From positions 1 through 64,000 of the forward strand of contig JAGGAC010000026.1 in assembly GCA_017889635.1 (NCBI GenBank): DNA of 64,000 nt, given 5' to 3'. The stretch's first letter is position 1, and every line of letters begins with the position of its first letter. The notes beneath the pieces were generated by a model. It did not search any database. It worked only from the letters and a program-made list of their open reading frames with translations, and had not been told where the DNA came from. Shown piece after piece: positions 13,329 to 27,216 of the stretch. This stretch comes from Bacillota bacterium. GTDB lineage: Bacteria > Bacillota > Negativicutes > Sporomusales > CTSoil-080. Position numbers and translations under genes: made by a program.

Positions 13329-14522
13329 CTACCTCTTTATTCCCTCTAAAATTGAATTTGCTTTTAGACTTGTCCCTGTTACTCTCACCTTAACCTTGAT
13401 ATTCACATGCAGGCTTGGAAAAATCTCATCCCAGTTATCTCGTAAAGATTCCCAGACTCGATAATTAGTTCTATGAATAACATCGCCAAAGCCAAATATG
13501 TCACTGTTATATTGTTTTTGAGCTGTAAAAATTGCTCCCGCCAAAATATTTTCAATTTCTTTTTCCTCTTCAGCTTCGATCATTCGAATATTTTCTTCTT
13601 TCAGTAAATCAATATCGGTTGAAATGCCGTTAATAGTACCTTCTATTTCCATTTTTATATTTATCTCCGGCTGCTCTTCTGCCTCAGCGGCTGTCAAGAA
13701 TACTTTGGTGCTTAAAATTTTCATTTCGACCATTCCGCCTTGCGGCAAGGTAATTACGCTGAGAAAATTCTTTCCCATGCCAGTTATATAATTGTATCCT
13801 TTACTATCTCTTTCATTTAGCCAACCAACAAGACGGTCTTTCTTAAATACCCCCAGCGGCACAATTTTAACTGTAGCAGGCATAACAACTTTTTTCAAAT
13901 TGTCGGTCTTATCGCTACTATCAGTATTACCTGAAATCTCGACCCCCGCAACCACCGGAGCTTTACCTTCAGTAACCAACATGCTTATTAATTTATCAAT
14001 GGTGACCACTGTAGTTGCCCCCCAAAATTCCTTGGCTAACAGCACTGAGTTAAACAGCGACTCGGCGGGAATAACTTCGGCCGGTGTCAGAACAGAAATA
14101 ACCTCCTTAACAGAAGTATTCTTAGCCACAAACAGGACAAAGTCGGCTCTAATTTCAAAACGTCTTGTAATGAAATCTAAAATTGGCGCGAGGCCTTCCC
14201 TGGCCAGTTTTTCACCAAAAACCAGAACCTGCAGATGGTTGTAAACCAATTTTCGTGGACACTCAGTATACACCTTTCTGTAAGCTTCAAAAACAGTTGA
14301 ACCGGTTGCAGCATAAGTTATTACCGGCGAACCAGAACCTTTATTTTTGCCGGCAATTTGTCCCGGGTTTAAGACTTGGAGCGAAACAATATAGCAGGTA
14401 GCATCTTTGTCAATCCCCAACGCGGATACTATGGCGCACTCGTCTAATTCCCTAGCGTCCCAACAACCGGTTGTAGCTATACTGATAATGATTAATAGGC
14501 TAATTAAGAACTTACGGTTCAT
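13329..14522 (-). CDS. gerC: Spore germination receptor C subunit, Ger(x)C family lipoprotein
   Basis: A 397-residue Ger(x)C protein with a lipoprotein signal (IATTGC, Cys near residue 20) followed by the family start WDARELDECAIVSALGIDKD. It should sit on the outer surface of the inner spore membrane. The ATG overlaps the stop of gerA, with GGAGGAGG upstream. The order in this operon is A-C-small-B, as in the gerK type, unlike the A-B-C order of operon 1. Length and motifs are normal. Confidence 0.92.
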   Translation of the reverse strand: MNRKFLISLLIIISIATTGCWDARELDECAIVSALGIDKDATCYIVSLQVLNPGQIAGKNKGSGSPVITYAATGSTVFEAYRKVYTECPRKLVYNHLQVLVFGEKLAREGLAPILDFITRRFEIRADFVLFVAKNTSVKEVISVLTPAEVIPAESLFNSVLLAKEFWGATTVVTIDKLISMLVTEGKAPVVAGVEISGNTDSSDKTDNLKKVVMPATVKIVPLGVFKKDRLVGWLNERDSKGYNYITGMGKNFLSVITLPQGGMVEMKILSTKVFLTAAEAEEQPEINIKMEIEGTINGISTDIDLLKEENIRMIEAEEEKEIENILAGAIFTAQKQYNSDIFGFGDVIHRTNYRVWESLRDNWDEIFPSLHVNIKVKVRVTGTSLKANSILEGIKR

Positions 14523-15958
14523 TCCGCCTCCTCCCGGTTAAGCGGTAATCTTAAAATAGCGTCGCGCTGAGTTTTGGTAACACGCGGCGATAATGGTTCC
14601 ATATAGGGAACACCCAACGAACGTAAACTGCACAGGTGAAACAGCATACCCATCAAGCCAATAAAAATACCGAAGAGACCAAAACTTGCTGCCAGCACCA
14701 TAAATACAAACCGCAGAATTCGAACCGCAAACGACATATTATAGTGCGGCAAAATGAAGCTCGACATAGCAGTTAACCCAACAACAATCAGCATTCCCTC
14801 AGACACAATGCCGGCTTGTACGGCAGCCTGTCCCATTACCAAGCCCCCAACCATCGATATTGCCGAGCCAATAGCTTTAGGCATTCTGATACTTGCTTCC
14901 CGGAATATCTCAAAGATTGCTTCCAATAATAAAGCTTCAATAAAGGTAGGAAATGGAGTGCCCTCCGCCTGGGCAGCTATATTTATTAAAAGTACAGTAG
15001 GAATCATTTCATTATGAAAGGTCGTAAGGGCAATATAGAGCGCCGGCACAAATAGCGTTAGCAGGAAGGCCGTATAACGCAGCACTCTAATTAATGAGCT
15101 TATAATATAATTATTATAGTAATCCTCGCTTGCCTGAAAAAACTGCACAAAGACCGCCGGAACAATGAGTACAAACGGTGTCCCATCCACTAAAATAGCA
15201 ATTCTTCCGTTCAATAGTTCCGCCGCAACTGTGTCCGGCCGCTCGGTATTTAATACTGTCGGAAAAATAGAAAAAGCGCGGTCTTGAATCAACTCTTCAA
15301 TATTACCGCTTTCCAAAATGCCATCAATAGCGATTCTTTCCAGCCGTAAATTTACCTTTTTAACCAAACTGCCATCACAAATTCCCTTAACATACACGAC
15401 AGCTACCGAAGTCTTGGTAACTCTACCGATAACTTTATTTTCAATCTGCAGTCTGCTGTCTTTTATTATTTTTCGAATAAGAGTCTTGTTGGTCGCTAGT
15501 TTTTCAACAAAGCCCTCTTGAGGGCCGCGCAAAACTCCCTGACTGCTTGGCGAACTGATACTCCGACCCTCGCTGCCACCTGATGACAGTGCTAGACTTT
15601 TGGATAAACCATCAAGCATTATAATGGTGTCACCGGACAAAAGCTGCTGGCATAACTTATCAAAGTCTGTTACTTCGGTAAAATTACTTCCTGACAGGTG
15701 AAGATTTTGTATATACTCAAAGACCTCCTGGTTGGCTAACAATTTATTCGACGCATCATATTGTTCCAGATCTTCTGTCAAGTCATTAATCATTTGTTGG
15801 ATATAGTTTTTATCCGCTAAGCCTTGTATATAAGCGACTGCCATCGATATACTTCGATTCTTGCCACAAATAAACGACCTGATAACCCAATCACTATTCT
15901 TGTCAGCTATTTGCTTTACTTGCTCGATATTCGCAATAAGTTTTATATGTAAATCCAT
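14519..15958 (-). CDS. gerA: Spore germination receptor A subunit (GerAA family)
   Basis: A 479-residue GerA protein of standard length. It has a soluble N-terminal half and then about five to six membrane segments from about residue 270. Signatures include NTERPDTVAAELLNGRIAI, GTPFVLIVPAVFVQFFQ and GVPYMEPLSPR. The ATG at 15958 is preferred over the GTG at 15973, because that GTG is part of the ribosome site GTGAGG. It is the first gene of operon 2. The A subunit alone is intact, but the receptor needs the B gene, which is frameshifted. Confidence 0.92.
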   Translation of the reverse strand: MDLHIKLIANIEQVKQIADKNSDWVIRSFICGKNRSISMAVAYIQGLADKNYIQQMINDLTEDLEQYDASNKLLANQEVFEYIQNLHLSGSNFTEVTDFDKLCQQLLSGDTIIMLDGLSKSLALSSGGSEGRSISSPSSQGVLRGPQEGFVEKLATNKTLIRKIIKDSRLQIENKVIGRVTKTSVAVVYVKGICDGSLVKKVNLRLERIAIDGILESGNIEELIQDRAFSIFPTVLNTERPDTVAAELLNGRIAILVDGTPFVLIVPAVFVQFFQASEDYYNNYIISSLIRVLRYTAFLLTLFVPALYIALTTFHNEMIPTVLLINIAAQAEGTPFPTFIEALLLEAIFEIFREASIRMPKAIGSAISMVGGLVMGQAAVQAGIVSEGMLIVVGLTAMSSFILPHYNMSFAVRILRFVFMVLAASFGLFGIFIGLMGMLFHLCSLRSLGVPYMEPLSPRVTKTQRDAILRLPLNREEAE

Positions 15959-16194
15959 TATTACCAACCTCACTGGAGTCGACAGTATTCCGCGTTTACT
16001 TGACTTTATCTGCTACTTTGACTTCTCGCTTTCACAGCCTAGCCTAAAAAGCTTTGTTAGTCTACAATAAATTATATTAATCCTAACTTTCTCAATCCCC
16101 TGTGTTTTAAACTAGCCATAACTTCCCACGCTATGAAATAGTTGTCTTGATTAGTTTTTCCTTGGTTTGCAAATTGTATACTATTTCCATATGA

Positions 16195-16239
16195 ATGAGG
16201 ACTGCCCGTAGCTTTGAATAAGCAACTGGCAGTCCTCAT
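16195..16239. terminator. Hairpin downstream of the GH13 gene
   Basis: Perfect 12-base arms (ATGAGGACTGCC and its complement) at 16195-16206 and 16228-16239 lie 5 bases after the GH13 stop. The T-rich tail is on the plus-strand side, so termination on the minus strand is less certain. Confidence 0.6.
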
Positions 16240-16244
16240 TTTAT

Positions 16245-18671
16245 TTAGCTCACCATTTTAAAGGCCACAACACCATTTGAAGGAATTACCATGTTGATAT
16301 GCCCGCCGGAAGAAGAAAGCAAGCCGCCCATATTACCAATATCAAAGCCATTATAAACTCCGGAATCACTGTTAAATACCTCCCGCCAATTCCCATCCGG
16401 CAGACTATCGCTATATATATCATAGCCGGCTGAAAATGGCGCATCATTTAAACTGGCACAAACCAGAAATTGCTGCTGACCGTACCAGCGCCTAAAGGCA
16501 ATAATTCTATTGGCATTATGAACATGAATAACCGCTTTGTTGGGAGAACGAAACGCAGCGTTTTCCTTGCTTAACTTAATAAGATCCTGATAGTACCGGT
16601 ATAAAAAACGGCCATTTCCTCGTCGTTCTGCTTCAAAATTTTCTTTGTTAAAGCTAAAATCATTATAGCGGTAGTCTTTCTGGAAGCCCACCTCCTCACC
16701 CATGAAAAACATCGGTATTCCCGCTGACAACAAAGTAAGACCGCTGGCCACCCGGCACCGATTTTCGGCATAACGACGGGTTTCTCCACGCAGCGGCGCA
16801 CGATTTACCGCCACCTCAATAGTTCGGCCTGACGAAGGTGAGTTACCGGCCTCGTCGTGTGATTCATGGTACACCACAGTATGTTCACCAGCATAATTAA
16901 AAGCTCCGGCGAAATAGTCCATCGCCAGCGGTCGGTTATCACCTAAGCCGGCTACCTTCATCAGCCTGGCATACTCGCTGCCGCGCTCTCCGTCACCAAT
17001 AAGATGGTGATAATAATTCGAATACCATACAGCATCAAACCCCAGGCCGCCTTCAGAAGTTGGCTGAGTAACGCCCTGCCAGCCTGAATGATCTTCAGCG
17101 ATCAGCATTATTTTAGGTTTTATCAGCCGCAAGGTCCGCGAAAATTCTCTGAGGAACTTCGTCCCAAAGGCTCGTACATCTTCAAGCGGTCTGCCATCAA
17201 CATGCAACTTGGGATAAAGATGCATTGAGCCAGTCTGGTCAACCCGCAGACCGTCAACATGGAATTCCTGCACCAATTGAGCTGCACTGCTGATAAACAT
17301 TTTTCTGACCATCTCATCCCAAAACCTTGGCGAATATCCGGTAGACTCATTATCGACATAACCGCCGTCAGGGCTAGGGTAATTAGACGGCTGCCCCTCA
17401 TACCAAAAATAGATATTTTTATCATCCCTGGTCGAATCATAATGCCACTCAGCCCGTTCGCCATGATGGGCATAGTGGTTATAAACTACATCCAGCAATA
17501 CAACTATTCCTCTTTGATGGCACTCCCGCACAAAATGTTTAAACTGATCTCGCCCGCCGCCGGCAAACTCCACCGCGAGGTAATGCGAAGTCGCATATCC
17601 CCAGCTGGCCCAGCCTTCAAATTCACTCATCGGCATTAACTCAATGGCATTTACCCCAAGCTCAACAAGGTAATCAATCATCTCCATTGCTTCTTTCAGT
17701 GATCCAGGAACAGGGCCAAACTGGTCATATTTGTCGTAGCCCAGCCCGCCAATATGCATTTCATATATAATTAAATCTTCCACTCTAGTTGGAATAGGGC
17801 GAGTTTGATTGAATTCATTCTGCCAAAAATCGTCTGAACTTAACCATCTTGTCTGAGGGAAGGGTTCGTCAAACAACTCGGTAACTCGTTCCGGATCAAT
17901 TACCACCGAACAACTCAGCATTCCCATCAAATCATGATAAGTTCCGTCCCACTGTTCTGTTTTTGGATTTTTACGGCCTTTGCCAATTTGGCATCTCGAA
18001 TATAGATCGGTTCGATAGACTATGCTGCCATCCTCCTGGGTGATTCGAAACATATACGGTGTATGGTCAAACGCCGCAAAGTTTCGGAGTTCAGGTGAGC
18101 TTCTAAGATCGCTATACCAAATGCCGGTGCTTTCATCCTTGTTTAACTTAAACTGACCTGGAGCGCTGATCATACCGGTGCCGTCATCCGCTATATATCC
18201 GCTGTCAGAGTTTCCCCTGACCATTTCCACCGCCTGGGCGTTCGGCGCCCACACCGAAAACATAATTGACGGATCAGCTGCATCAGCTAAATAATACTTG
18301 TTAGCCCCCAGCCGTCGACAATTTGTCAGAAAATATTCCTCGTTTTGTTCCCCTTGCCTCAAAACAAATTTCCGGTGTCGTAAATCCACGTTCTTATCAT
18401 TTACTTCAGTAGGTATCCCCCATTGGTTAGGAATGTCCGGCCCATCAAGCAGCACCCCCCACCTAAAAGTTTTGCCAGCCTCTGAGTCATTCAAGTTTAC
18501 CCTGGCCGTAAAACTAGGACTGCCGGTATACGAACGCTCTTCAGTCATCGTTACGGTTGTCCATGTATCAGAGTAGTTTCCCGATTCATCCCAGCTGCCT
18601 GTTAATCTCACATTTCTAAAAAGTTCTCCATTTAAACCTACATGATAGTTAAAAATAACACCAGCCACCAA
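16245..18671 (-). CDS. GH13 alpha-glucan-active enzyme (branching enzyme/pullulanase-like)
   Basis: An 808-residue glycoside hydrolase family 13 protein. An N-terminal beta-sandwich/CBM48-like region (about 1-280) precedes the (beta/alpha)8 barrel. All four catalytic motifs are present: DVVYNHY (about 392), GLRVDQTG with the nucleophile Asp (about 472), LIAEDHSGW with the acid/base Glu (about 522) and HESHDE (about 601). It should be active on alpha-1,4/1,6-glucans such as glycogen. The extra N-terminal domain resembles glycogen branching enzymes and debranching enzymes, but which activity it has is unclear. No signal peptide is visible, so it is cytoplasmic. The start is TTG or the adjacent GTG, with GGAGGT 6-9 bases upstream. 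It is not in a glycogen operon. Confidence 0.87.
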   Translation of the reverse strand: MVAGVIFNYHVGLNGELFRNVRLTGSWDESGNYSDTWTTVTMTEERSYTGSPSFTARVNLNDSEAGKTFRWGVLLDGPDIPNQWGIPTEVNDKNVDLRHRKFVLRQGEQNEEYFLTNCRRLGANKYYLADAADPSIMFSVWAPNAQAVEMVRGNSDSGYIADDGTGMISAPGQFKLNKDESTGIWYSDLRSSPELRNFAAFDHTPYMFRITQEDGSIVYRTDLYSRCQIGKGRKNPKTEQWDGTYHDLMGMLSCSVVIDPERVTELFDEPFPQTRWLSSDDFWQNEFNQTRPIPTRVEDLIIYEMHIGGLGYDKYDQFGPVPGSLKEAMEMIDYLVELGVNAIELMPMSEFEGWASWGYATSHYLAVEFAGGGRDQFKHFVRECHQRGIVVLLDVVYNHYAHHGERAEWHYDSTRDDKNIYFWYEGQPSNYPSPDGGYVDNESTGYSPRFWDEMVRKMFISSAAQLVQEFHVDGLRVDQTGSMHLYPKLHVDGRPLEDVRAFGTKFLREFSRTLRLIKPKIMLIAEDHSGWQGVTQPTSEGGLGFDAVWYSNYYHHLIGDGERGSEYARLMKVAGLGDNRPLAMDYFAGAFNYAGEHTVVYHESHDEAGNSPSSGRTIEVAVNRAPLRGETRRYAENRCRVASGLTLLSAGIPMFFMGEEVGFQKDYRYNDFSFNKENFEAERRGNGRFLYRYYQDLIKLSKENAAFRSPNKAVIHVHNANRIIAFRRWYGQQQFLVCASLNDAPFSAGYDIYSDSLPDGNWREVFNSDSGVYNGFDIGNMGGLLSSSGGHINMVIPSNGVVAFKMVS

Positions 18672-18708: not shown

Positions 18709-20040
18709 TTAGTTAAAATCCCCCTTAGATTCCTGGATATCAGCAGCCCTTAGTGCGGCCATAATTTTTTTGCGCCGCGCTTGATCTTCAACGCCCTCCG
18801 CGATAGCGCGCTGGGTACGGCCTGAATAATCCTCAATGTCGGTATCCGCTCCATTGTCCAGAAACCATCGTATCTGAGCAAGATATCCCTCTAATTGGTC
18901 AGGAGCAACGGTAGTAGCGCGTAGTACGGTGTCATGAAGAGCTGTTAAACCATTAGCTGTAGGCTGCTCATTCAAGGCAGCAGTAAGTGCCTGTGAACTC
19001 ATGTGCCGCCCAATCTCTTGAAGAATTTTCAAGTGATTGAAGACAGCAGCACGAATGATTGCGTGAACTCCCATTGGGTGACGCTCGCGGACAATGGGAT
19101 CGGCCCCTTTTTCAAGCAGATACTTGACAAGCATAATTCGAAGTTCCGCCACGTTTTGGTTGGGTGGAATTCCATTATTTCCTGTGACTGCTACTATCAG
19201 TGGCGGTTGCTGCAACGGTCCGCCCAGCCGATTCAAATCGATATTTTTCGTTTCAACAAAGCTTTTAATTTCTTCAAGTAGATTTTTAAAGTTTCCCGTT
19301 TCTTTAGCTGCCCGCGCAAGTACCTCCTCCATCATACCGATAAGAGTATCGCTTAACTGCTGGTCAGCGGCCTGGTCCGGCAAATATACTGGTGCGATCC
19401 GCCCCAAAAGAACCTTATAGTAAGCAGCTTTCGCCGCCTTGGAACTGTCATAAGATTTAATCACCTCAAGCATCGGTTCATTTTGAAACTGACCGGCAAG
19501 TTCGCTCCCGCCCAAACCTCGCACAGTGGTAGCAGCTGTGTTTGCGCCGGATTTCAGCGCGAATTCAGCTAAAGCCAAATGTCCGTAGAATACTGCTTGA
19601 AGAAACAAAGTATGGCCGTTAAGCTCCCAAATCCGGTCAAGATGGTCCGGACATTTAGTCAAAAGCAGTTTAGCGGTCTGAACATTTCCTGATTGACCTG
19701 CGAAATGAATCGGAAGAGCCCCTGATTTTCGATGCGCGAGATCTGAACTGGCCTGACGAAAAGGACCATTTATAAGCAAATCAACAGCATAAGCCTGTCC
19801 TCTAACCGCTGCCGCAAGAAGCGGCGTCCAGCCGTCCTCATCATATTGGTCAGGATTGCCACCATAATCTAGCCAAGCGCCGAGTCCTCTTATATCACCA
19901 TCTCTAGCCATTCCAACTATCCGACCTATATCCGGTTCACCGGCACATTGATCACCACATTGGATATTCAACGCATAATCTTTTGTATAAGAGTTTCTGT
20001 TTCGCCGGCATCCAGCAGCATCATAAATTTGAATATCCAC
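18709..20040 (-). CDS. Ankyrin-repeat protein
   Basis: A 443-residue soluble protein made largely of ankyrin repeats. Repeat-like units include DEDGWTPLLAAAVRGQ, SGALPIHFAGQSGNVQ, NGHTLFLQAVFYGHLALA and, near the end, NGLTALHDTVLRAT and NGADTDIEDYSGRT. The N-terminus is Cys-containing (IQCGDQCAGE) with no clear signal peptide. Ankyrin proteins usually bind other proteins. Here it is the last gene of a five-gene operon of enzymes, only 41 bases after the ThDP enzyme, so it may scaffold or protect those enzymes (inference). The start is GTG, with GGAGGT 7 bases upstream. Confidence 0.82.
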   Translation of the reverse strand: MDIQIYDAAGCRRNRNSYTKDYALNIQCGDQCAGEPDIGRIVGMARDGDIRGLGAWLDYGGNPDQYDEDGWTPLLAAAVRGQAYAVDLLINGPFRQASSDLAHRKSGALPIHFAGQSGNVQTAKLLLTKCPDHLDRIWELNGHTLFLQAVFYGHLALAEFALKSGANTAATTVRGLGGSELAGQFQNEPMLEVIKSYDSSKAAKAAYYKVLLGRIAPVYLPDQAADQQLSDTLIGMMEEVLARAAKETGNFKNLLEEIKSFVETKNIDLNRLGGPLQQPPLIVAVTGNNGIPPNQNVAELRIMLVKYLLEKGADPIVRERHPMGVHAIIRAAVFNHLKILQEIGRHMSSQALTAALNEQPTANGLTALHDTVLRATTVAPDQLEGYLAQIRWFLDNGADTDIEDYSGRTQRAIAEGVEDQARRKKIMAALRAADIQESKGDFN

Positions 20041-20081
20041 TTCTCTTACCTCCGTATAGGGAATTGAGGTTTAAAACGACA

Positions 20082-21698
20082 CTAGCTTTTAGTTTGATTG
20101 ACTAATAGATCAATTAAAAACGGTCCTTGATGATTAAACATTTTTTCGATAGCGGGTCTTATGTCAGCAGGTTTTTCAACTCGGACGCCAGTAACACCCA
20201 ATGCCTCAGACAGTTGTACATAATTTATCTCAGGAGTTTTGATATAAAAGGATTCCGGGAAATTACGCCCCGTGATTTGGTGCTCCTGCCAATACTGGCG
20301 AAGATTATTTTGCAGTATTCTATACCCCTGGTTGTTACATACAACAAACTTTGCTCCGATGTTGTAATGAGCAGCCGTCCACAAAGCCTGGATTGTATAC
20401 ATGCTGCCCCCATCGCCGCCAAAGCCAATCACCGTAGCTTCAGGCGCGGCAATTTTAAGACCTATTGCCCCCGGAATGCCGACTCCCAAGGAAGTCCATC
20501 TGGTTTGAAAAAAGCATCCAGGCTTTGTGCTAAGAATGTAACGGTTCAATTCGACGGAACAAGTTTCGGCTTCATCAAAAATAATCGTATTCGGCGGCAT
20601 ATGTTCAGCAAATTCCCGCATAAACCGACCAGGTATCACTGGAATAGAATCCCAAGACTCAATATCCGCTTTTATTTCCAAATCAAGCTGGGATCTTTTT
20701 TCGTCAGCCAACATTTTATTACGCTCTAGAACAGTTTCTTTTTGCTCTGAAGTTTGAATACGTTCAACAATGCTGTTGAGTTTCTTAAACGTTAACTTAG
20801 GATCACTTACAATGCCAATATCCACTGGGAAGTTCTTGGCTATTTCATAAGCGTTCAAGTCAATATGAATAAGTGGTTTACCATGAGGGAAAATATCCGC
20901 CAACAATGGGAATACCTCCGGGAATAAATAAGTGCCGCTGACAAAAATCACATCCGCCTTTGCCATAGCTGCTTTTGAATATTTGCCTGACATATGATTC
21001 AATAGCCCGCGATAATTTGGATTCGCTCCGCTAATATTCATTTCAGAGCCTTCCGCAGCCCAAACTTCTGCCGCAACAAGCTTTACTAACTGAGCCAATT
21101 CGTCTTGAGCTCCAGAATAGGCAATTCCATCGCCAATAATAAAAACTGGATGTCTGGCATCAATAAGCATTTTAGCAACCCTTTCCAGTTGAGAATCATC
21201 CGGCGCTGTACGGGTATCAAGTATTGTCGAAGGAACAATCTCTTCTTCGCTTTGCATGTCCAGTATATCCATTGGCAAACAGACAAAAACCGGTCCCATT
21301 GGCGGAGTCGAAGCAACTTTTACAGCCCTTCGAATTACTCTGAGCAGCGAAGAGGAATCCACTACCCGTGTCGCCCATTTCGTCACCGGCTTAGCCATAG
21401 CCACAATATCGGCTGCCATATGTGCTTCCATTGCGTCGTATTTTATGCCAGCTTCACCAGCAAGTACAATAAGTGGGGCATGTCCCCGCATCGCCTGGTA
21501 CAACATGCCAATGCCGTTTCCCAGACCAACCCCGGAATGAAGCTGAATAACAGCCGGTTTTTTTGTTTTTCTGGCAAAACCGTCGGCAATTGCCACAGCT
21601 GTAGCTTCCTCCAGAGCCAGGATATATTGGAACTCTGGATAGTAGTCCCCTACCGCATCAAGCAGCCCCTGCTCCACCGATCCCGGATTGCCGAACAT
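20082..21698 (-). CDS. ThDP-dependent decarboxylase/lyase, benzoylformate decarboxylase-like
   Basis: The 538 visible residues make a three-domain thiamine-diphosphate enzyme. The catalytic Glu lies in LALEEATAVAIADGFA, a BFD-like stretch reads QLHSGVGLGNGIGML, and the ThDP/Mg motif GDGG...NN occurs at GFGGDGGSMYTI and VVCNNQGYRIL. It probably acts on a 2-oxo acid in the cytoplasm; the substrate is unknown. The conserved N-terminus is longer than this start: the same frame reads RTGRHAVIEQLLADGIKYM upstream of residue 1, back to a stop. An ATG at 21765, 6 bases after the previous gene, is one base out of frame. Either a frameshift at the GGG at 21758-21760 or a rare ATT start is needed. See findings. 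Confidence 0.85.
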   Translation of the reverse strand: MFGNPGSVEQGLLDAVGDYYPEFQYILALEEATAVAIADGFARKTKKPAVIQLHSGVGLGNGIGMLYQAMRGHAPLIVLAGEAGIKYDAMEAHMAADIVAMAKPVTKWATRVVDSSSLLRVIRRAVKVASTPPMGPVFVCLPMDILDMQSEEEIVPSTILDTRTAPDDSQLERVAKMLIDARHPVFIIGDGIAYSGAQDELAQLVKLVAAEVWAAEGSEMNISGANPNYRGLLNHMSGKYSKAAMAKADVIFVSGTYLFPEVFPLLADIFPHGKPLIHIDLNAYEIAKNFPVDIGIVSDPKLTFKKLNSIVERIQTSEQKETVLERNKMLADEKRSQLDLEIKADIESWDSIPVIPGRFMREFAEHMPPNTIIFDEAETCSVELNRYILSTKPGCFFQTRWTSLGVGIPGAIGLKIAAPEATVIGFGGDGGSMYTIQALWTAAHYNIGAKFVVCNNQGYRILQNNLRQYWQEHQITGRNFPESFYIKTPEINYVQLSEALGVTGVRVEKPADIRPAIEKMFNHQGPFLIDLLVNQTKS

Positions 21699-21771
21699 AT
21701 ATTTTATTCCATCAGCCAGTAATTGCTCTATGACCGCATGTCTTCCGGTTCTAATAACCCTTCATCCTTTC

Positions 21772-22521
21772 CTACCAGCCATATTTCCGTAGTCCATTTT
21801 CAAGGACTTCGACCAGTTTTTGTCCGCAAAGATACGAACACGCCGTAGAACGGGCCGAAATAAATGGATAATCTACAATAACCGAAGTTCTTTGCCCGAC
21901 ATTACCATGGTACTGACCGTTTGGCCCAACGGCGTCTCGCAAGATGTATTCCAGCGGATAAGGCGGCGGCCCGATGACAAAATCAGTCCCTAAAAACAAA
22001 TTAAAGTCCCGAGCAAAAGCCAGGCAGGTAACCCCATAGCATTCAACGGCAATAGGCTTGTCCTTTTTGTAAAAGGCTAATATCATATCATGTACCCGTC
22101 GGTTATTTACCATATCGACAATTGGTCCGCTTCCGCCTACTATAAGCAGCGCATCATATCTATCCAAGCCGCGTTCTGCTTTCTCCAGAAGACTATAATA
22201 GCTTTCCATCTCTTTTAAATAGTTAGGCGAACTAAGGTAAGGGCGTTCGGGAAACATTTTTTCGATGTTCTCAGGATTATTTAACCTCCCGGACGAGTCA
22301 ATGTCCCTGGTCTTTTTCGCCATTTCCTCCGACACCACCGTCCGTCCCAGCGGCGGATCAACGAAACTTGCGTCCATGCTTGGCGGCAGAGCATGAGGAA
22401 TTTTCCCCTTGGGCGTGGCAAATACCGTGGTATAGCCTGCTTGATCAAACGTTTCCAGCGGACCGACGAGTTCTTCGCCCCAGTAGCCATACTCTGATAA
22501 AACCGCAAGAATTTTTTTCAT
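21772..22521 (-). CDS. DJ-1/PfpI family protein A
   Basis: The 249-residue protein starts MKKILAVLSEYGYWGEELVGP at an ATG with GGAGGGAG upstream; the in-frame codons before it overlap that site. The fold family is DJ-1/PfpI: a parallel sheet with a Cys at the nucleophile elbow (AVECYGVTC) and a glycine-rich IVGGSGP. Members include Hsp31-type glyoxalase III enzymes and cysteine hydrolases. The extra segment with PEDxPY-like PERPYLSSPNYLKEM suggests an Hsp31/glyoxalase-like subgroup (inference). It lies 31 bases after a second DJ-1 gene and immediately before the ThDP enzyme in the same operon. Confidence 0.85.
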   Translation of the reverse strand: MKKILAVLSEYGYWGEELVGPLETFDQAGYTTVFATPKGKIPHALPPSMDASFVDPPLGRTVVSEEMAKKTRDIDSSGRLNNPENIEKMFPERPYLSSPNYLKEMESYYSLLEKAERGLDRYDALLIVGGSGPIVDMVNNRRVHDMILAFYKKDKPIAVECYGVTCLAFARDFNLFLGTDFVIGPPPYPLEYILRDAVGPNGQYHGNVGQRTSVIVDYPFISARSTACSYLCGQKLVEVLENGLRKYGW

Positions 22522-22552
22522 AAGCTCCCTCCACACTGAACATAATTGTCAA

Positions 22553-23188
22553 TCATAGAGATTCCCCGTTTTCAACCTTCAATATTTGTTCAACAATTTT
22601 GTCAACGAAAAGCGCTGTCTCATGATAGGTACGACCGGTCACCAAATCTTTATCGACTACTACACCAGAAGGATCATCACTAAACACGCCGCCGGCATTT
22701 ATTATATCTGCAAGAACTACGTTATTGCAGATAACCTTTCGGTTCCGCAAAAGCTCCGGATTAGGCGTGATAATCCACAGGCCATGGCATAACGCTCCTT
22801 TTATAATCCGTTGGCTTTTCATTGCTCGGGCGTAAAAATCTACCGCTGGAGCGGTCTTTACCATATCAGCTGTGATTGGCTTCTTGTCAGGCGGTTCAAA
22901 ATGTCTTAACCGTACACTAGTATAGTTCGCTGACATAATTACAGCCGCATAGTCCTCAAGTTTAACCTTATCGAAGTCGATACTCACATCTAAAGTTTCC
23001 GGTGTTTTTCCTGCTTCACTCACCGTGCTGATAAAAGTCATTTTGGCGTTCCCCCATAATCTGGACATAAAGTCTACAACCATCCCATACTGATTAAATT
23101 TTTCACGATATACTGCAATTTCTTCTGGGATATACTGACTTTCCACAAGAATTGCAACCTTTTTATTTTGTAATTTATCGTTATTCAC
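22553..23188 (-). CDS. DJ-1/PfpI family protein B
   Basis: A 211-residue DJ-1/PfpI protein with the typical start KKVAILVESQYIPEEI (conserved Glu) and a nucleophile elbow Cys in KGALCHGLWI. This is the PfpI/YhbO type, known as putative cysteine peptidases, chaperones or glyoxalases. The start is GTG; GGTGG lies close before it and GAGGG further upstream. It sits between the AGE-like gene and a second, more distant DJ-1 paralogue. Two different DJ-1 proteins in one operon suggest a heteromer or two steps acting on reactive carbonyl compounds (inference). Confidence 0.85.
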   Translation of the reverse strand: MNNDKLQNKKVAILVESQYIPEEIAVYREKFNQYGMVVDFMSRLWGNAKMTFISTVSEAGKTPETLDVSIDFDKVKLEDYAAVIMSANYTSVRLRHFEPPDKKPITADMVKTAPAVDFYARAMKSQRIIKGALCHGLWIITPNPELLRNRKVICNNVVLADIINAGGVFSDDPSGVVVDKDLVTGRTYHETALFVDKIVEQILKVENGESL

Positions 23189-23213
23189 TTCGCCACCACT
23201 TCCCTCACTCTAG

Positions 23214-25223
23214 TCATTTACTGCAGCGCGGGCAAAATTGAACATTAATTGTTTTGCCAAGATCTTCTTTTCTAAGCTGAATCTGAAAATTATCTTTATC
23301 AAAATTCGTTCGCGGAACACCGTTTATAGTTATACTTACAATCTCAACATCATTCGGTTTGAAAAAATCAGGCAGCACATTAATTGACAGTAAAGAGCTA
23401 TTTACCGATGGTATGAAATACATGGAAAAGGTTTTTTCGCCTGGCGGACGATTTCCAACATAAGAACTTAAATAAATGTGCGCTAAATAGTTAAGTTCAA
23501 AGGCATGGTAGCCAGCCTTAGCATGGCTGCCCTTATTGGCGTACTCGCCTTGGATTATCGGAACGCCGTTGTCATTGACCCGGAAATAAATTCCCCTATG
23601 CTCCCGGTCCAGAAAATATACATTCCAAAACGCCATCATTTCTCTGGCCAATTTCAGGTATCTGCCATCCTTAGCATCAGCGCCATGCAGTATCAGGTAT
23701 GCCAGAATCGCCTGTTCCTGCTGCCAAAAATCTTTAGTATTGCTCCAGGCAAACTCTAGCGGCATACCATTGCCAGGTTCCCGCTCCACAGTATCAAATA
23801 AGCCGCCATGAATAACGTCCACGCCATGTGTCGCGATCTTATCCCCGATATTTTGGGCAAGCTCAATATAACGCTTGGCCTGAGATGCGTATTTTCCGGC
23901 TTTATCTTTATCACCGGCTTCAAGGTATTCCCTTTCCCGGCACAATAAATAATAAGCGCACCGTGTTAAGTTCCAGGCAATTTTAAGATTATGCCCAACA
24001 ACCGCCCGGTTCTGCTGCCAGGAATAGCTATGATCAGGTTTCCAGTCATCCATAAACCGTTCATTGACATAAGGATTTCCACCGTCAGGAAACTTTTCTA
24101 CAATAAATCCCAGCGTCATCTCCAACATGTCCCGGCATTTATCTCTTATGCGAATCAAATTGCCGCTGTTATCGCCAATCGGCAACGGATCAAGAGCCGA
24201 AAGAAGGTTGACAAGATAGGCCGGAATGTGATCGCCGATCGAATTCCAGTTCTTGCGCAGTTTATTTTTACCTAAAGCCTCAGAATCAGGGCGCATTGTC
24301 ACATAGTCGATATGGGAAAAGTAGCCGCCATTCCCTGGAAAGCCTTTAACCTTGGCCTTTTCATCATCTAAGTAGAAATCATTGAAGGCATTAATGGTAC
24401 GCTCGATATCTTTTAAAACTTCCCACTCCTGGGTAATACGATAATACTGTGCCAAACCTGCCAGGGCATAAATTTGTTCGTACAAAGGAATAGAGTTTAA
24501 GTCATCAGGATTTTGCGACGGAATAACCAGTTTGGAACTGGTTTTAAGTTTTCGCCACCCATGAGCCCAAATACATTGCGTTCCGTCATGGGTAAGACTC
24601 CGAAACGTCTGACGCTGATACTCAACACCAGCCTTAGCCGCAAGGTAATATCTGCGGCTGCCGGTCAATAGATAAGCTGACGACAGTCCGTAAATCAAAC
24701 GCGAAAGCGTGGCGCATTCCTGAATATTATCATCTGTTTCTCCGCCAAGAATATTAAGATTAGTGCGATATAATTCAGCAAAATCATCGGTAGCATAGTT
24801 GCGTCTAGTACCAAAGATATCATCCAGCCATTCGTCAGCCAACAACCTAATCTGGTTAAGCCACCAATGGGTTTCTTCAAACGCCAAAATATCCGGGACT
24901 GAGTTTAAAATATGTATAATACTGGCATCAAAACTTGACGCTGATTCTACCTCCTGATAAATCCCCTCAACCGCTAGCAGCCAACCGATACTAATATTCT
25001 TTTTTATTTTTTTGCAGATATCCGAACAAGAATCATTAACTGGCTCAGGCAGTCGGTTTCGCTCCAATGTGTCAAGGTTCTCTACTACCTTAAACTCTGT
25101 ATTAGCGCGCACTCTGACTTTAAAGCTGTCACCGCTGCGACACTGAAGCGTAAACGAGTTACCATCAGCATCAATCGCGGTTACGTCGCCCATGATGCTG
25201 ACTTGCTGAATAAACTGTTTCAT
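23214..25223 (-). CDS. AGE-superfamily (N-acylglucosamine 2-epimerase-like) protein with an extra N-terminal domain
   Basis: A 669-residue protein. Residues 1-110 form a beta-rich domain (SIMGDVTAIDADGNSFTLQC). Residues about 115-610 are an alpha-toroid typical of AGE-type sugar epimerases/isomerases, with the family landmarks WWLNQ, VGHNLKIAWNL, DFWQQEQAILAY and KAGYHAFELNYL. The last 60 residues are another beta domain ending in FCPRCSK, a CxxC pair. The catalytic His residues of this family appear present (GHN and YHAF). It is the first gene of the five-gene operon. The start at 25223 is chosen over 25241, because GGAGG overlaps the earlier Met codon. The extra N- and C-terminal domains are unusual for the family, so the substrate may be unusual too. 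Confidence 0.8.
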   Translation of the reverse strand: MKQFIQQVSIMGDVTAIDADGNSFTLQCRSGDSFKVRVRANTEFKVVENLDTLERNRLPEPVNDSCSDICKKIKKNISIGWLLAVEGIYQEVESASSFDASIIHILNSVPDILAFEETHWWLNQIRLLADEWLDDIFGTRRNYATDDFAELYRTNLNILGGETDDNIQECATLSRLIYGLSSAYLLTGSRRYYLAAKAGVEYQRQTFRSLTHDGTQCIWAHGWRKLKTSSKLVIPSQNPDDLNSIPLYEQIYALAGLAQYYRITQEWEVLKDIERTINAFNDFYLDDEKAKVKGFPGNGGYFSHIDYVTMRPDSEALGKNKLRKNWNSIGDHIPAYLVNLLSALDPLPIGDNSGNLIRIRDKCRDMLEMTLGFIVEKFPDGGNPYVNERFMDDWKPDHSYSWQQNRAVVGHNLKIAWNLTRCAYYLLCREREYLEAGDKDKAGKYASQAKRYIELAQNIGDKIATHGVDVIHGGLFDTVEREPGNGMPLEFAWSNTKDFWQQEQAILAYLILHGADAKDGRYLKLAREMMAFWNVYFLDREHRGIYFRVNDNGVPIIQGEYANKGSHAKAGYHAFELNYLAHIYLSSYVGNRPPGEKTFSMYFIPSVNSSLLSINVLPDFFKPNDVEIVSITINGVPRTNFDKDNFQIQLRKEDLGKTINVQFCPRCSK

Positions 25224-25358: not shown

Positions 25359-25400
25359 AACCTGCTCACCAGGCTTAACTTCAGCCAAAATGAGCAGGTT
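25359..25400 (-). terminator. Terminator after the DJ-1/OYE operon
   Basis: Ten-base arms AACCTGCTCA at 25359-25368 and its complement at 25391-25400. On the minus strand the hairpin is followed by TTTTTGTTTTG, a good U-tract. It ends the operon of the third DJ-1 gene and separates it from the AGE operon. Confidence 0.78.
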
Positions 25401-25477: not shown

Positions 25478-26074
25478 TCAAACTATAACATCATACTCCA
25501 TCCGTTTTGCTGTCGCAACGGCCACTTCACTGCCAAGCAATTGTTTTATAATATAGAGCGACACATTAATCCCGGCAGAAATGCCTGCTGCAGTAATTAT
25601 TGAGCCTTCGTCAACATATTTACAATTTTTAACGACTTTAACGGCAGGAAATTCACGTTCAAGACGGTCAATATCAAGCCAATGTGTGGTGGCATGTTTG
25701 CCATCAATGAGACCTGCCTTTGCCAACAAAAATGCGCCTGTACACACTGAAACAATAAGCTTTGTGTCAGCCTTACGGCTGCGAATCCACTGGATTACGT
25801 GTTCGTTATGTATCTCAATTTCTTCTGCTCCATAGCCGCCGGGAATAATAAGAATATCAAAATCAGGCGAATTATTAAAACTATAATGCGGCTGGACCAA
25901 TAACCCGTTTCGCGCCTTTACTACTGTTCCATACTGTGAAATTGTCTGAACTAAAAATGGTTTGTCTTGTCTATCAGGAAAAGAAGTCAGGGAAAAAACT
26001 TCAAACGGTCCTGCGAAATCTAATACTTCCACCTCATCAAATAAAAGTATCCCCACTCGCCAAAACCTATCCAT
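25478..26074 (-). CDS. DJ-1/PfpI family protein, isonitrile hydratase/AraC-sensor type
   Basis: A 198-residue DJ-1/PfpI protein of the subgroup that includes isonitrile hydratase (InhA) and the N-terminal sensor of GATase1-AraC regulators. It has the conserved Asp in VEVLDFAGPFEVF, the nucleophile Cys in IVSVCTGAFLLA and a THW motif (KHATTHWLDIDRL). It has no DNA-binding domain, so it is an enzyme rather than a regulator. The ATG at 26074 has GGAGG 5 bases upstream; the longer frame starts in that site. It follows the OYE-like gene by 38 bases and is likely cotranscribed with it. Substrate unknown. Confidence 0.86.
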   Translation of the reverse strand: MDRFWRVGILLFDEVEVLDFAGPFEVFSLTSFPDRQDKPFLVQTISQYGTVVKARNGLLVQPHYSFNNSPDFDILIIPGGYGAEEIEIHNEHVIQWIRSRKADTKLIVSVCTGAFLLAKAGLIDGKHATTHWLDIDRLEREFPAVKVVKNCKYVDEGSIITAAGISAGINVSLYIIKQLLGSEVAVATAKRMEYDVIV

Positions 26075-26112
26075 CTCATCCTCCACTTACTATTCGTCAG
26101 TTAAATAGTCTC

Positions 26113-27216
26113 TCATTCGCCGCTTGAGACCATTTGCCGCTTGAAAATACAGATCGTACCGCCAGGATTGTAACACTTATTACAGAAAACGCATTTTGCG
26201 GGGTCCAATTCTCCACGCTGCCAGCGGTTAATAAGATCAGTTTCACGAATCAGCGAGCGGCTAAGCGCAATATATTCAATAGCGGTTTGATTAATAATCT
26301 CTGTCAGTTGATTAAATTCTCGGTTACCGCCCACCAAAATAACCGGAACCGTTAATTCTTGTGCCAATTCATCTGCATACGGTCTAAAATACGACTCTTG
26401 ACCCCGCCTTATTAATCTTGACGGTCCCTTGTTCATCCGTGATGAGCGACTGCCGCCGCTTACCTCAATAGCGCTTATTCCAAGTTCCGCTAAGGTTTTA
26501 CAAACATATTTGCATTCTTCAAAAGTCATACCTTGATCCATAAAATCTTCACAATTAATTTTAATCAGGATTGGATATTCCGGACCTACCTTTTCCCTGA
26601 CTGCCTTATATGTTTCCACAACCATTCTAGCCCTGTTTTCAATACTGCCGCCATAACAGTCTGTTCGCTGATTATAATAAGGATTTAGAAATTTGCTTAA
26701 CAAGTAGCCATGGGCGCTATGCAGCTGAACACCATCGAAACCAGCCTTTTTAGCCCGAAGTGCAGCATCAGCGAACGCAGTTTGTACAAACAAAATCTCC
26801 TCAGTTGTCATTTCTTGGGGAGTAGTATTGTAACCCGTATCAAGTACTTTGCTTGGCCCCCACATTACCTTGCCGCCGGCTAACTCAGGTGAAGCTTGGG
26901 AACCAAGACAGGCAAGCTGCATAATTATATTGCCGCCATAACTATGAACGACATCCACAAGCTTCTTATATTCGTCAATATAGGAATCATCATAAAGAGC
27001 CATTTGTCCCTGATAAAGCTGTTCTAACTTAGTTACAGCCGTAAGTCCGGTGATAATTGTCCCCACTCCTCCTCTCGCCAAATTTTCATAAACCTGAACT
27101 AACTCCTGAGTCATGCGCCCGTCTTCACCAGCTACGCCATCATAAGTAGCCGAGCGAAAAAATCTGTTTTTTAGCTTCATACCAGCAAATTGTGTTTGGT
27201 CAAATAACGATTTCAT
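26113..27216 (-). CDS. Old Yellow Enzyme-family NADH:flavin oxidoreductase
   Basis: A 367-residue FMN TIM-barrel ene-reductase. The active-site pair is intact as HSAH in VQLHSAHGYLLSKF. The family phrase YGGSIENRARMV is present, as is the C-terminal FMN-phosphate loop (VILVGGNRE). A Cys-rich tail (CVFCNKC plus a further Cys in GGTICIF) resembles the iron-sulphur ligand region of 2,4-dienoyl-CoA reductase-like enzymes, but the flavodoxin/NAD domain of those long enzymes is absent. It reduces activated C=C bonds in the cytoplasm. It is paired with a DJ-1 gene downstream. A close paralogue lies at 39687-40709. Confidence 0.9.
   Translation of the reverse strand: MKSLFDQTQFAGMKLKNRFFRSATYDGVAGEDGRMTQELVQVYENLARGGVGTIITGLTAVTKLEQLYQGQMALYDDSYIDEYKKLVDVVHSYGGNIIMQLACLGSQASPELAGGKVMWGPSKVLDTGYNTTPQEMTTEEILFVQTAFADAALRAKKAGFDGVQLHSAHGYLLSKFLNPYYNQRTDCYGGSIENRARMVVETYKAVREKVGPEYPILIKINCEDFMDQGMTFEECKYVCKTLAELGISAIEVSGGSRSSRMNKGPSRLIRRGQESYFRPYADELAQELTVPVILVGGNREFNQLTEIINQTAIEYIALSRSLIRETDLINRWQRGELDPAKCVFCNKCYNPGGTICIFKRQMVSSGE

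Follow-up and report, generated by a model that had tools for sequence, protein, structure and literature searches.

A recurrent set of AGE-fold, DJ-1, thiamine diphosphate enzyme and GH13 genes and its six-gene copy in a Bacillota genome

Operons of sugar enzymes are a known kind of gene arrangement, and the closest described relatives of the genes treated here fall into several families: the AGE family (cellobiose 2-epimerase, D-mannose isomerase, glucose 2-epimerase and YihS), the DJ-1-fold proteins Hsp31/glyoxalase III and PfpI, benzoylformate decarboxylase (BFD), the GH13 enzymes GlgB, TreZ and GlgX and, for genes that adjoin AGE in one clade, the Thoeris-like TIR/SLOG and nSTAND conflict systems. 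Here we describe six consecutive minus-strand genes (25223-16245) for an AGE-fold protein, two DJ-1-fold proteins (DJ1a and DJ1b), a thiamine diphosphate (ThDP) enzyme, an ankyrin-repeat protein (ANK) and a GH13 protein. They lie on a 64,000-nt stretch of a Bacillota genome (contig JAGGAC010000026.1, positions 1 to 64,000, assembly GCA_017889635.1), hereafter the window. The host genome is a 4.5-Mb draft of 152 contigs and is 99.2% complete. The gene set is shown below to be conserved across very different bacteria, modular, mobile and tied together by fusions. We give a probability of about 0.45 to the reading that this run of six genes belongs to a carbohydrate-processing module spread by horizontal transfer. 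No name for the set was found, and searches of open-access literature, with most subscription journals and all preprints outside it, gave no description of it. The system is probably undescribed. The features of the operon are as follows.

23214..25223, minus strand: AGE-fold enzyme that carries an OB-fold domain at its N-terminus and a beta tail at its C-terminus (PF07221, 27.6 bits, cut-off 23.4)
22553..23188, minus strand: DJ1a, DJ-1/PfpI-fold protein, PfpI-like (PF01965, 43 bits)
21772..22521, minus strand: DJ1b, ThiJ-like/Hsp31-like DJ-1-fold protein (PF17124, 70.1 bits; PF01965, 31.5 bits)
20082..21765, minus strand: ThDP (TPP) enzyme, benzoylformate-decarboxylase-like (PF02775, PF00205, PF02776; BFD structures at E 1e-57)
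18709..20040, minus strand: ANK, ankyrin-repeat protein (PF12796, 62.4 bits)
16245..18671, minus strand: GH13 protein, GlgB/TreZ-like, the sixth gene (PF00128, 77.6 bits)
25359..25400, minus strand: terminator-like hairpin with a T-run, the upstream boundary (-25.3 kcal/mol, z -4.05, 0/200 shuffles as good)
16194..16240, minus strand: strong hairpin directly after the GH13 stop codon (-29.3 kcal/mol, z -7.03, 0/200 shuffles as good)

A gene set conserved across very different bacteria

Relatives were picked through the AGE protein alone in a search of genome contigs, which gave 65 loci under 15 phylum labels. The neighbouring genes therefore form an independent test. DJ1a was found in 59 of these loci, DJ1b in 48, GH13 in 47 and the ThDP enzyme in 30, and 15 held any counted ankyrin gene; open reading frames (ORFs) with the DJ1a label, among them the DJ1a-ankyrin frame of L014, do not enter this last number. 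In 46 of the loci the sequence runs on for 9 kb or more past AGE, and here the numbers were 43 for DJ1a, 39 for GH13, 37 for DJ1b, 23 for the ThDP enzyme and 10 for any ankyrin. Nearly all genes counted lay on the same strand as AGE (DJ1a 63/63, DJ1b 49/49, ThDP 30/30 and GH13 48/49). AGE, DJ1a, DJ1b and the ThDP enzyme occurred together in 27 of the 65 loci. The grouping is not a chance one. The conserved neighbourhood expected in the initial annotation, which had named the first five genes, was borne out: the genes are not separate in all relatives, and the five families with any ankyrin stand together in 6/65 loci (Actinomycetales RSA1, Actinomadura, Solidesulfovibrio, Desulfarculus and two Sphingobium), with GH13 present in all six. 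The relatives' ORFs were longest frames with uncurated starts, and neighbour overlaps are inexact; not all of the neighbour genes were scanned with Pfam.

The members are also joined by fusions. A single open frame holds both DJ1a and DJ1b in 26/65 loci and both AGE and DJ1a in three (L050, L055 and L074). DJ1a is followed by ankyrin repeats in a single frame in L014 (by Pfam), an ORF of the same length, which was not scanned, is found in L062, and a SnoaL-ankyrin fusion was seen in L015 and L048. The accessory genes are interchangeable: SnoaL-like genes were counted in 23 loci, GMC in 17, EthD in 13, VOC in 9 and MIase in 6. On the AGE tree, the DJ1a-DJ1b frame state changes at least 7 times (46 rows), and the presence of GMC and that of ankyrin change at least 11 times each (62 rows), which indicates that parts were gained and lost often. 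GMC was found in 0/11 loci judged anaerobic from organism names compared with 17/54 of the others (Fisher p 0.054), and the window's own genome holds no GMC. A guess from gene lengths that the small genes beside the relatives were phage-tail-like was rejected, as sequence and Pfam identified them as SnoaL, VOC and GMC. Carbohydrate genes near relatives elsewhere include GlgX, GlgB, glycogen synthase and SMP-30. Two unusual fusions were noted besides: a protein of 1288 residues that combines SnoaL and ankyrin with an HpcH/HpaI aldolase-like stretch (L015:11468-15334), and ankyrin repeats joined to a prenyltransferase alpha/alpha toroid domain (L018:13681-15774).

The initial annotation had also taken the ankyrin protein for a scaffold. 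As a general feature of the set this did not hold. A homologue of the window ankyrin protein is present in 7/65 loci (up to 62% identity, in L013), and the other loci carry SnoaL, GMC, EthD or VOC instead or also, or a fused ankyrin. A constant ankyrin scaffold was thus ruled out by its presence in a minority of loci.

The spread of the set was followed on an AGE tree built by a quick method (62 rows, namely 61 of the 65 loci and the window). The tree required 21 phylum-label changes for 15 labels, compared with 36.9 in shuffles and a possible minimum of 14. The labels are partly clustered and partly mixed, and starred forks unite different phyla. The window row sits on a long branch and in no starred small set. 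The AGE gene was found in 1/28 genomes of the window's order, which was the window's own, and in 1/299 genomes of the phylum. A match was obtained in 12/300 genomes of the class, made up of the window, one weak match and ten of a type further removed, which include fragments. Among 72,556 plasmid records 20 matched AGE, and one of these was of the close type over its length: the conjugative plasmid pNsp_a of Nostoc ATCC 53789, with an integrase gene nearby. The simplest reading is horizontal transfer into the window genome, with no donor named. The AGE cluster of pNsp_a also contains two Nif11-like leader peptide genes (L078:21173-21833), the first of which was confirmed by Pfam. A 3.4-kb contig labelled Methanospirillum (L060) carries a bacterial-type AGE/DJ-1 cluster with its nearest AGE in Syntrophorhabdus. 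This contig is likely mis-binned, and we therefore make no archaeal claim.

The six proteins and their closest described families

The AGE protein has about 670 residues, with the OB domain at about 1-112 and the barrel at about 113-600, and its start at ATG 25223 agrees with the MK.F.QS N-terminus of relatives. Its AlphaFold model has a predicted local distance difference test score (pLDDT) of 89. The best PDB match of the model was the D-mannose isomerase 5x32 (Z 34.0 over 379 residues, root-mean-square deviation 2.4), and the top 24 VIA rows were all AGE-family entries (Z 28-34 over 367-401 residues). Cellobiose 2-epimerase and glucose 2-epimerase were matched by the barrel as well, and identity to these two and to the mannose isomerase was 15-18%. 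The model, the structure search and the PF07221 score above cut-off all assign the protein to the AGE type of (alpha/alpha)6 barrel. The N-terminal 116 residues, modelled alone, gave a pLDDT of 89 and an OB topology. Their PDB matches were mostly OB-fold proteins, many in number and with weak E-values (best 8e-4), and no ligand is therefore claimed. H338, H417 and H579 are invariant in 39 sequences. These three are candidate catalytic residues, H338 and H417 by motif only. H579 is aligned with the YHN histidine of the cellobiose 2-epimerase 5zig and is the only one of the three that was seen aligned to a solved epimerase. The window protein thus shares the barrel and the YH-motif histidine with the AGE family, and differs in its added OB domain and C-terminal tail, in its length, in its operon with GH13, DJ-1 and ThDP genes and in a barrel only 14-18% identical to the enzymes with known substrate.

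Both DJ-1-fold proteins scored above the Pfam cut-offs and belong to the DJ-1/PfpI superfamily, and both missed the cut-off of the PfpI subfamily model TIGR01382 (139.05 bits; DJ1a 57.1, DJ1b 38.1). E16, C134 and H135 of DJ1a, presumably its catalytic residues, were invariant among 25 aligned sequences. The listed ORF of DJ1b begins earlier, at GTG 22536. C166 of DJ1b is invariant, and its profile matches were Hsp31, glyoxalase III and plant DJ-1D. The fold family and the Cys are common to DJ1a, DJ1b, Hsp31/glyoxalase III and PfpI. However, DJ1b has C-Y where DJ1a has C-H, and the two types often lie in one frame, unlike in Hsp31 and PfpI.

The ThDP enzyme contains the three TPP Pfam domains and a conserved E49, which places it in the ThDP decarboxylase/ligase superfamily. 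E49 and H72 are kept among relatives; we assume that E49 is the catalytic Glu and that H72 is catalytic as well. BFD is the closest solved family, and its GNPGS motif, catalytic Glu and H70 equivalent were found in the window protein, their roles in BFD being those that we presume. The window protein has no His at the place that we take, by BFD numbering, to be H281. The score against the BFD equivalog NF005485 was 303.7 bits, below the cut-off of 493, and the protein was not filed as BFD.

In the GH13 protein D478, E526, H605 and D606, which we take as catalytic, are kept by 95% or more of 38 sequences, and the PF00128 domain with its Asp, Glu and Asp supports membership of the GH13 superfamily. 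The catalytic domain and these residues are common to GlgB, TreZ, GlgX and the window protein. The cut-off of the GlgB model NF003811 (741 bits) was missed at 160.4 bits, and a score of about 160 bits also compares with a cut-off of 538.8 for TreZ; the window protein further differs in its long, different N-terminal part. GH13 matches were found at four places in the window's own genome, the operon gene included. Alignment A1 covered 22 of the 48 DJ1b loci, A2 38 of 65 loci, A3 24 of 59 and A4 32 of 65.

Boundaries and state of the window copy

The five genes named in the initial annotation were confirmed on the minus strand (25223-18709) with the folds given there by Pfam, and the short gaps were also right. 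From AGE to GH13 the gaps are 25, 31, about 6, 41 and 37 bases, and the gap of about 6 bases assumes that ThDP starts at ATG 21765. The proposed five-gene operon stood in so far as its genes are present, and overlooked the sixth gene and two lesions. The GH13 gene is preceded by its own GGAGG site. It follows ANK by 37 bases with no hairpin beyond shuffles in between, and a GH13 gene lies near AGE in 47/65 loci; hence we count the set as six genes. A hairpin folding test found no structure beyond shuffles at the ANK-GH13 and ThDP-ANK junctions. The upstream hairpin at 25359-25400 was also picked up by the terminator scan, and the hairpin at 16194-16240 is a possible transcript end, though it has no T-run. 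Overall, the terminator scan gave 8 sites compared with a shuffle mean of 9.8 and the sigma-70 scan gave 24 compared with 21.4, neither an excess, and we therefore claim no promoter.

Upstream of the operon, a third DJ-1 protein (25478-26086) stands beside an Oxidored_FMN (old-yellow-enzyme-type) gene, the pair spanning 25478-27216. These two were rejected as operon members on account of the terminator-like hairpin and the lack of relatives in other loci: neither had a tblastn match (E 1e-4) listed in any of the 76 loci besides L001, which is the window's own DNA. The spore-germination genes GerA and GerAC (13329-15973) come right after the operon.

The state of the window copy was assessed against conservation sets of 55 DJ1a, 41 DJ1b, 26 ThDP, 37 GH13 and 7 ANK relatives, chosen by a score cut and the absence of stops. 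Counted over the positions that 93% or more of the relatives share, the window departed at 4/144 in AGE, 3/40 in DJ1a, 13/84 in DJ1b (mostly gap), 5/67 in ThDP, 7/165 in GH13 and 2/73 in ANK. Two of the six genes carry lesions. The ATG at 21765 reads ATG AAG GGT TAT TAG and is out of the ThDP frame, which is open only after a TGA at 21764 and has its first ATG, GTG or TTG at ATG 21698. Relatives start 3-5 residues ahead of a (T)GR motif (27 rows), and the ATG at 21765 stands at the matching place. A start at 21698 would cost the enzyme about 20 residues of its first domain. The anomaly could stem from a shift of one base, from misassembly or from a rare start at ATT. From DJ1b a conserved stretch of 24 residues is missing behind residue 180, at about base 21999. 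The segment, ..R.S....KHVTGH..EYDY..G, is present in 41/41 aligned relatives, and a counterpart was seen by eye in the sister-type DJ1b of L089. From Hsp31 numbering as we assume it, the third catalytic residue is expected inside the lost segment.

The window copy may thus be partly decayed. That it is a decaying relic, an operon no longer working here, is a real prospect somewhat short of even odds, and it is compatible with the other readings discussed below. The out-of-frame ThDP start, a DJ1b loss found in 0/41 relatives and the isolation of the window genome as the sole carrier in its order all favour it. On the other hand, AGE, DJ1a, ANK and GH13 retain nearly all conserved positions, misassembly could account for the one-base shift in ThDP, and translation might conceivably begin at an ATT.

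Sister clusters and the possible role of the module

A second AGE type (34-39% identity) was found in clusters with a GlgX-type GH13, DJ-1 and ThDP genes and partner-switching genes. The order in two genomes of the window's class was MatE, GNAT-like, dCache-HAMP-SpoIIE, AGE, STAS, HATPase-DJ1a fusion, DJ1b, ThDP, STAS and GlgX, with Pfam run for the first genome only. The MatE protein has a weak HATPase tail below the Pfam cut-off, and the GNAT-like protein was assigned by eye, with no Pfam match. At L089:7999-8997 (minus strand), a fusion of a HATPase of the anti-sigma-kinase type with DJ-1 is flanked by STAS genes, GlgX and a SpoIIE phosphatase that has sensor domains. Plasmids of Streptomyces and Deinococcus carry AGE-STAS-GlgX-STAS with SpoIIE, and Runella has AGE-STAS-GlgX-antagonist together with an ATP-binding gene; several ester-cyclase/NTF2-type genes in succession lie upstream of these. 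The annotated stretches of the Gemmobacter, Gloeothece and Nostoc C052 plasmid clusters contain no STAS gene. No sigma factor was recognised in the sister-cluster stretches (10 proteins scanned in the window's class). Pfam found no STAS, HATPase or SpoIIE among the six window genes, and the STAS and SpoIIE models matched 0/65 main-type loci.

Within the main type, one clade (L048, L031, L064 and L066; support 87) has TIR-domain genes after AGE on the same strand, recognised by Pfam in L031, L048 and L066 and by clustering with L066 in L064. SLOG genes were found in L031, L064 and L066, and nSTAND1 NTPases in L031 and L048 (L066:12267-16079; L031:12005-18680; L064:6112-8126; L048:13873-19781). 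The TIR and SLOG genes of L066 stand between AGE and the DJ1a-DJ1b fusion, and the SLOG gene and the fusion overlap by 4 bases. The likeness to Thoeris-like and nSTAND conflict systems is limited: the TIR/SLOG pair of L066 gave partial PADLOC matches to ThsB and ThsA, and no Thoeris-like TIR (ThsB) or SLOG (ThsA) was detected by PADLOC among the six window proteins. The GH13 and ankyrin proteins of the window gave generic GlgB and ankyrin-type matches, and the other four gave none.

On the reading of a carbohydrate-processing module, the GH13 protein would cut or rearrange an alpha-glucan (glycogen-like or a maltodextrin), and the OB-AGE enzyme would epimerise or isomerise the resulting sugar or oligosaccharide, with C1/C2 as the site. 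An alpha-oxo-aldehyde or lactone-like intermediate would be converted by the pair of DJ-1 proteins, acting as one unit and often one polypeptide, and the ThDP enzyme would cleave or form a C-C bond in a 2-oxo acid or acyloin. Other hosts, which probably use oxygen, would have further steps of oxidation and rearrangement, supplied by a GMC oxidoreductase and small SnoaL, EthD, VOC or MIase proteins. In copies that have them, ankyrin repeats may join or hold components, and the window copy would be an anaerobe-type version without GMC. The route for a sugar and a 2-oxo acid suggested by the initial annotation would, judged from sequence, be compatible with the folds. Several points weigh against this reading. 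Nothing in the analysis points to a substrate, the AGE barrel has low identity to enzymes of known substrate, and an AGE-like fold also occurs in the transaldolase AprG (Z 23 in the same structure search). The ThDP enzyme was not found in 35/65 loci, some of them on short contigs, and GH13 is missing from 7/46 long loci. L065, which has AGE alone with long flanks, and L042, which has only AGE and GH13, are true exceptions; L030 and L036 are truncated, or almost, where their contigs end. The lesions in ThDP and DJ1b and the weakness of the GMC-anaerobe association also count against it, and the STAS/SpoIIE and TIR/SLOG neighbours are unexplained by plain catabolism.

These neighbours lead to the view that the module is a regulated signalling output, in which STAS/HATPase/SpoIIE or TIR/SLOG/nSTAND proteins would switch the enzymes and a metabolite change would answer stress or invasion. 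We regard this as a serious rival, though less likely than the module reading. Several points favour it: the dCache-HAMP-SpoIIE gene, STAS genes beside AGE and GlgX, the HATPase-DJ1a fusion and the HATPase tail of MatE, with no sigma factor among the 10 proteins scanned; similar layouts on the Streptomyces and Deinococcus plasmids and, with an ATP-binding protein, in Runella; the TIR, SLOG and nSTAND1 neighbours, which in L066 lie inside the operon; and the common ankyrin repeats. It is opposed by the window and 61/65 loci, where no TIR/SLOG was found (not all neighbours were scanned), by the lack of STAS and SpoIIE model matches in all 65 loci and by the PADLOC matches of the window, which are only generic. 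A narrower proposal, slightly more doubtful, is that the AGE-GH13-DJ-1-ThDP core is a metabolic effector, the enzymes themselves and not a sigma factor being the target of the switches. In one branch, partner switching would work by way of the HATPase that is joined to DJ1a; in another, the switches would be TIR/SLOG/nSTAND nucleotide sensors. The core would change a glucan-derived metabolite on command, and the window would hold a stripped-down, ankyrin-bearing version.

Small-molecule biosynthesis, with sugars feeding a secondary metabolite and SnoaL, EthD, MIase, VOC and GMC as tailoring enzymes, would account for the frequency of these accessory genes, the two Nif11-like peptides of pNsp_a, the ester-cyclase/NTF2-type proteins of the Runella sister cluster and the patchy spread. 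It is improbable, since the window and many loci hold none of these five families, no recurrent synthase, carrier protein or dedicated transporter was seen among the families counted, and the conserved part consists of sugar and DJ-1 enzymes. Least probable of all, we consider, is damage control, with DJ-1 and VOC proteins clearing reactive carbonyls from glucan turnover and AGE and GH13 merely co-regulated. Of the named proteins with solved structures, Hsp31 and glyoxalase III come nearest to DJ1b, and DJ1a retains its E, C and H, as this would predict. But the frames that join DJ1a to AGE and to DJ1b better suit the steps of one pathway, and the window DJ1b has lost a conserved strand.

Annotation of the core families goes no further than epimerase, DJ-1, TPP enzyme and amylase, and a substrate would assign a function to them. 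The set recurs with fusions and interchangeable accessory parts under the 15 phylum labels and also on plasmids. Its sister clusters could show whether partner switching or TIR/SLOG signalling acts directly on metabolic enzymes.

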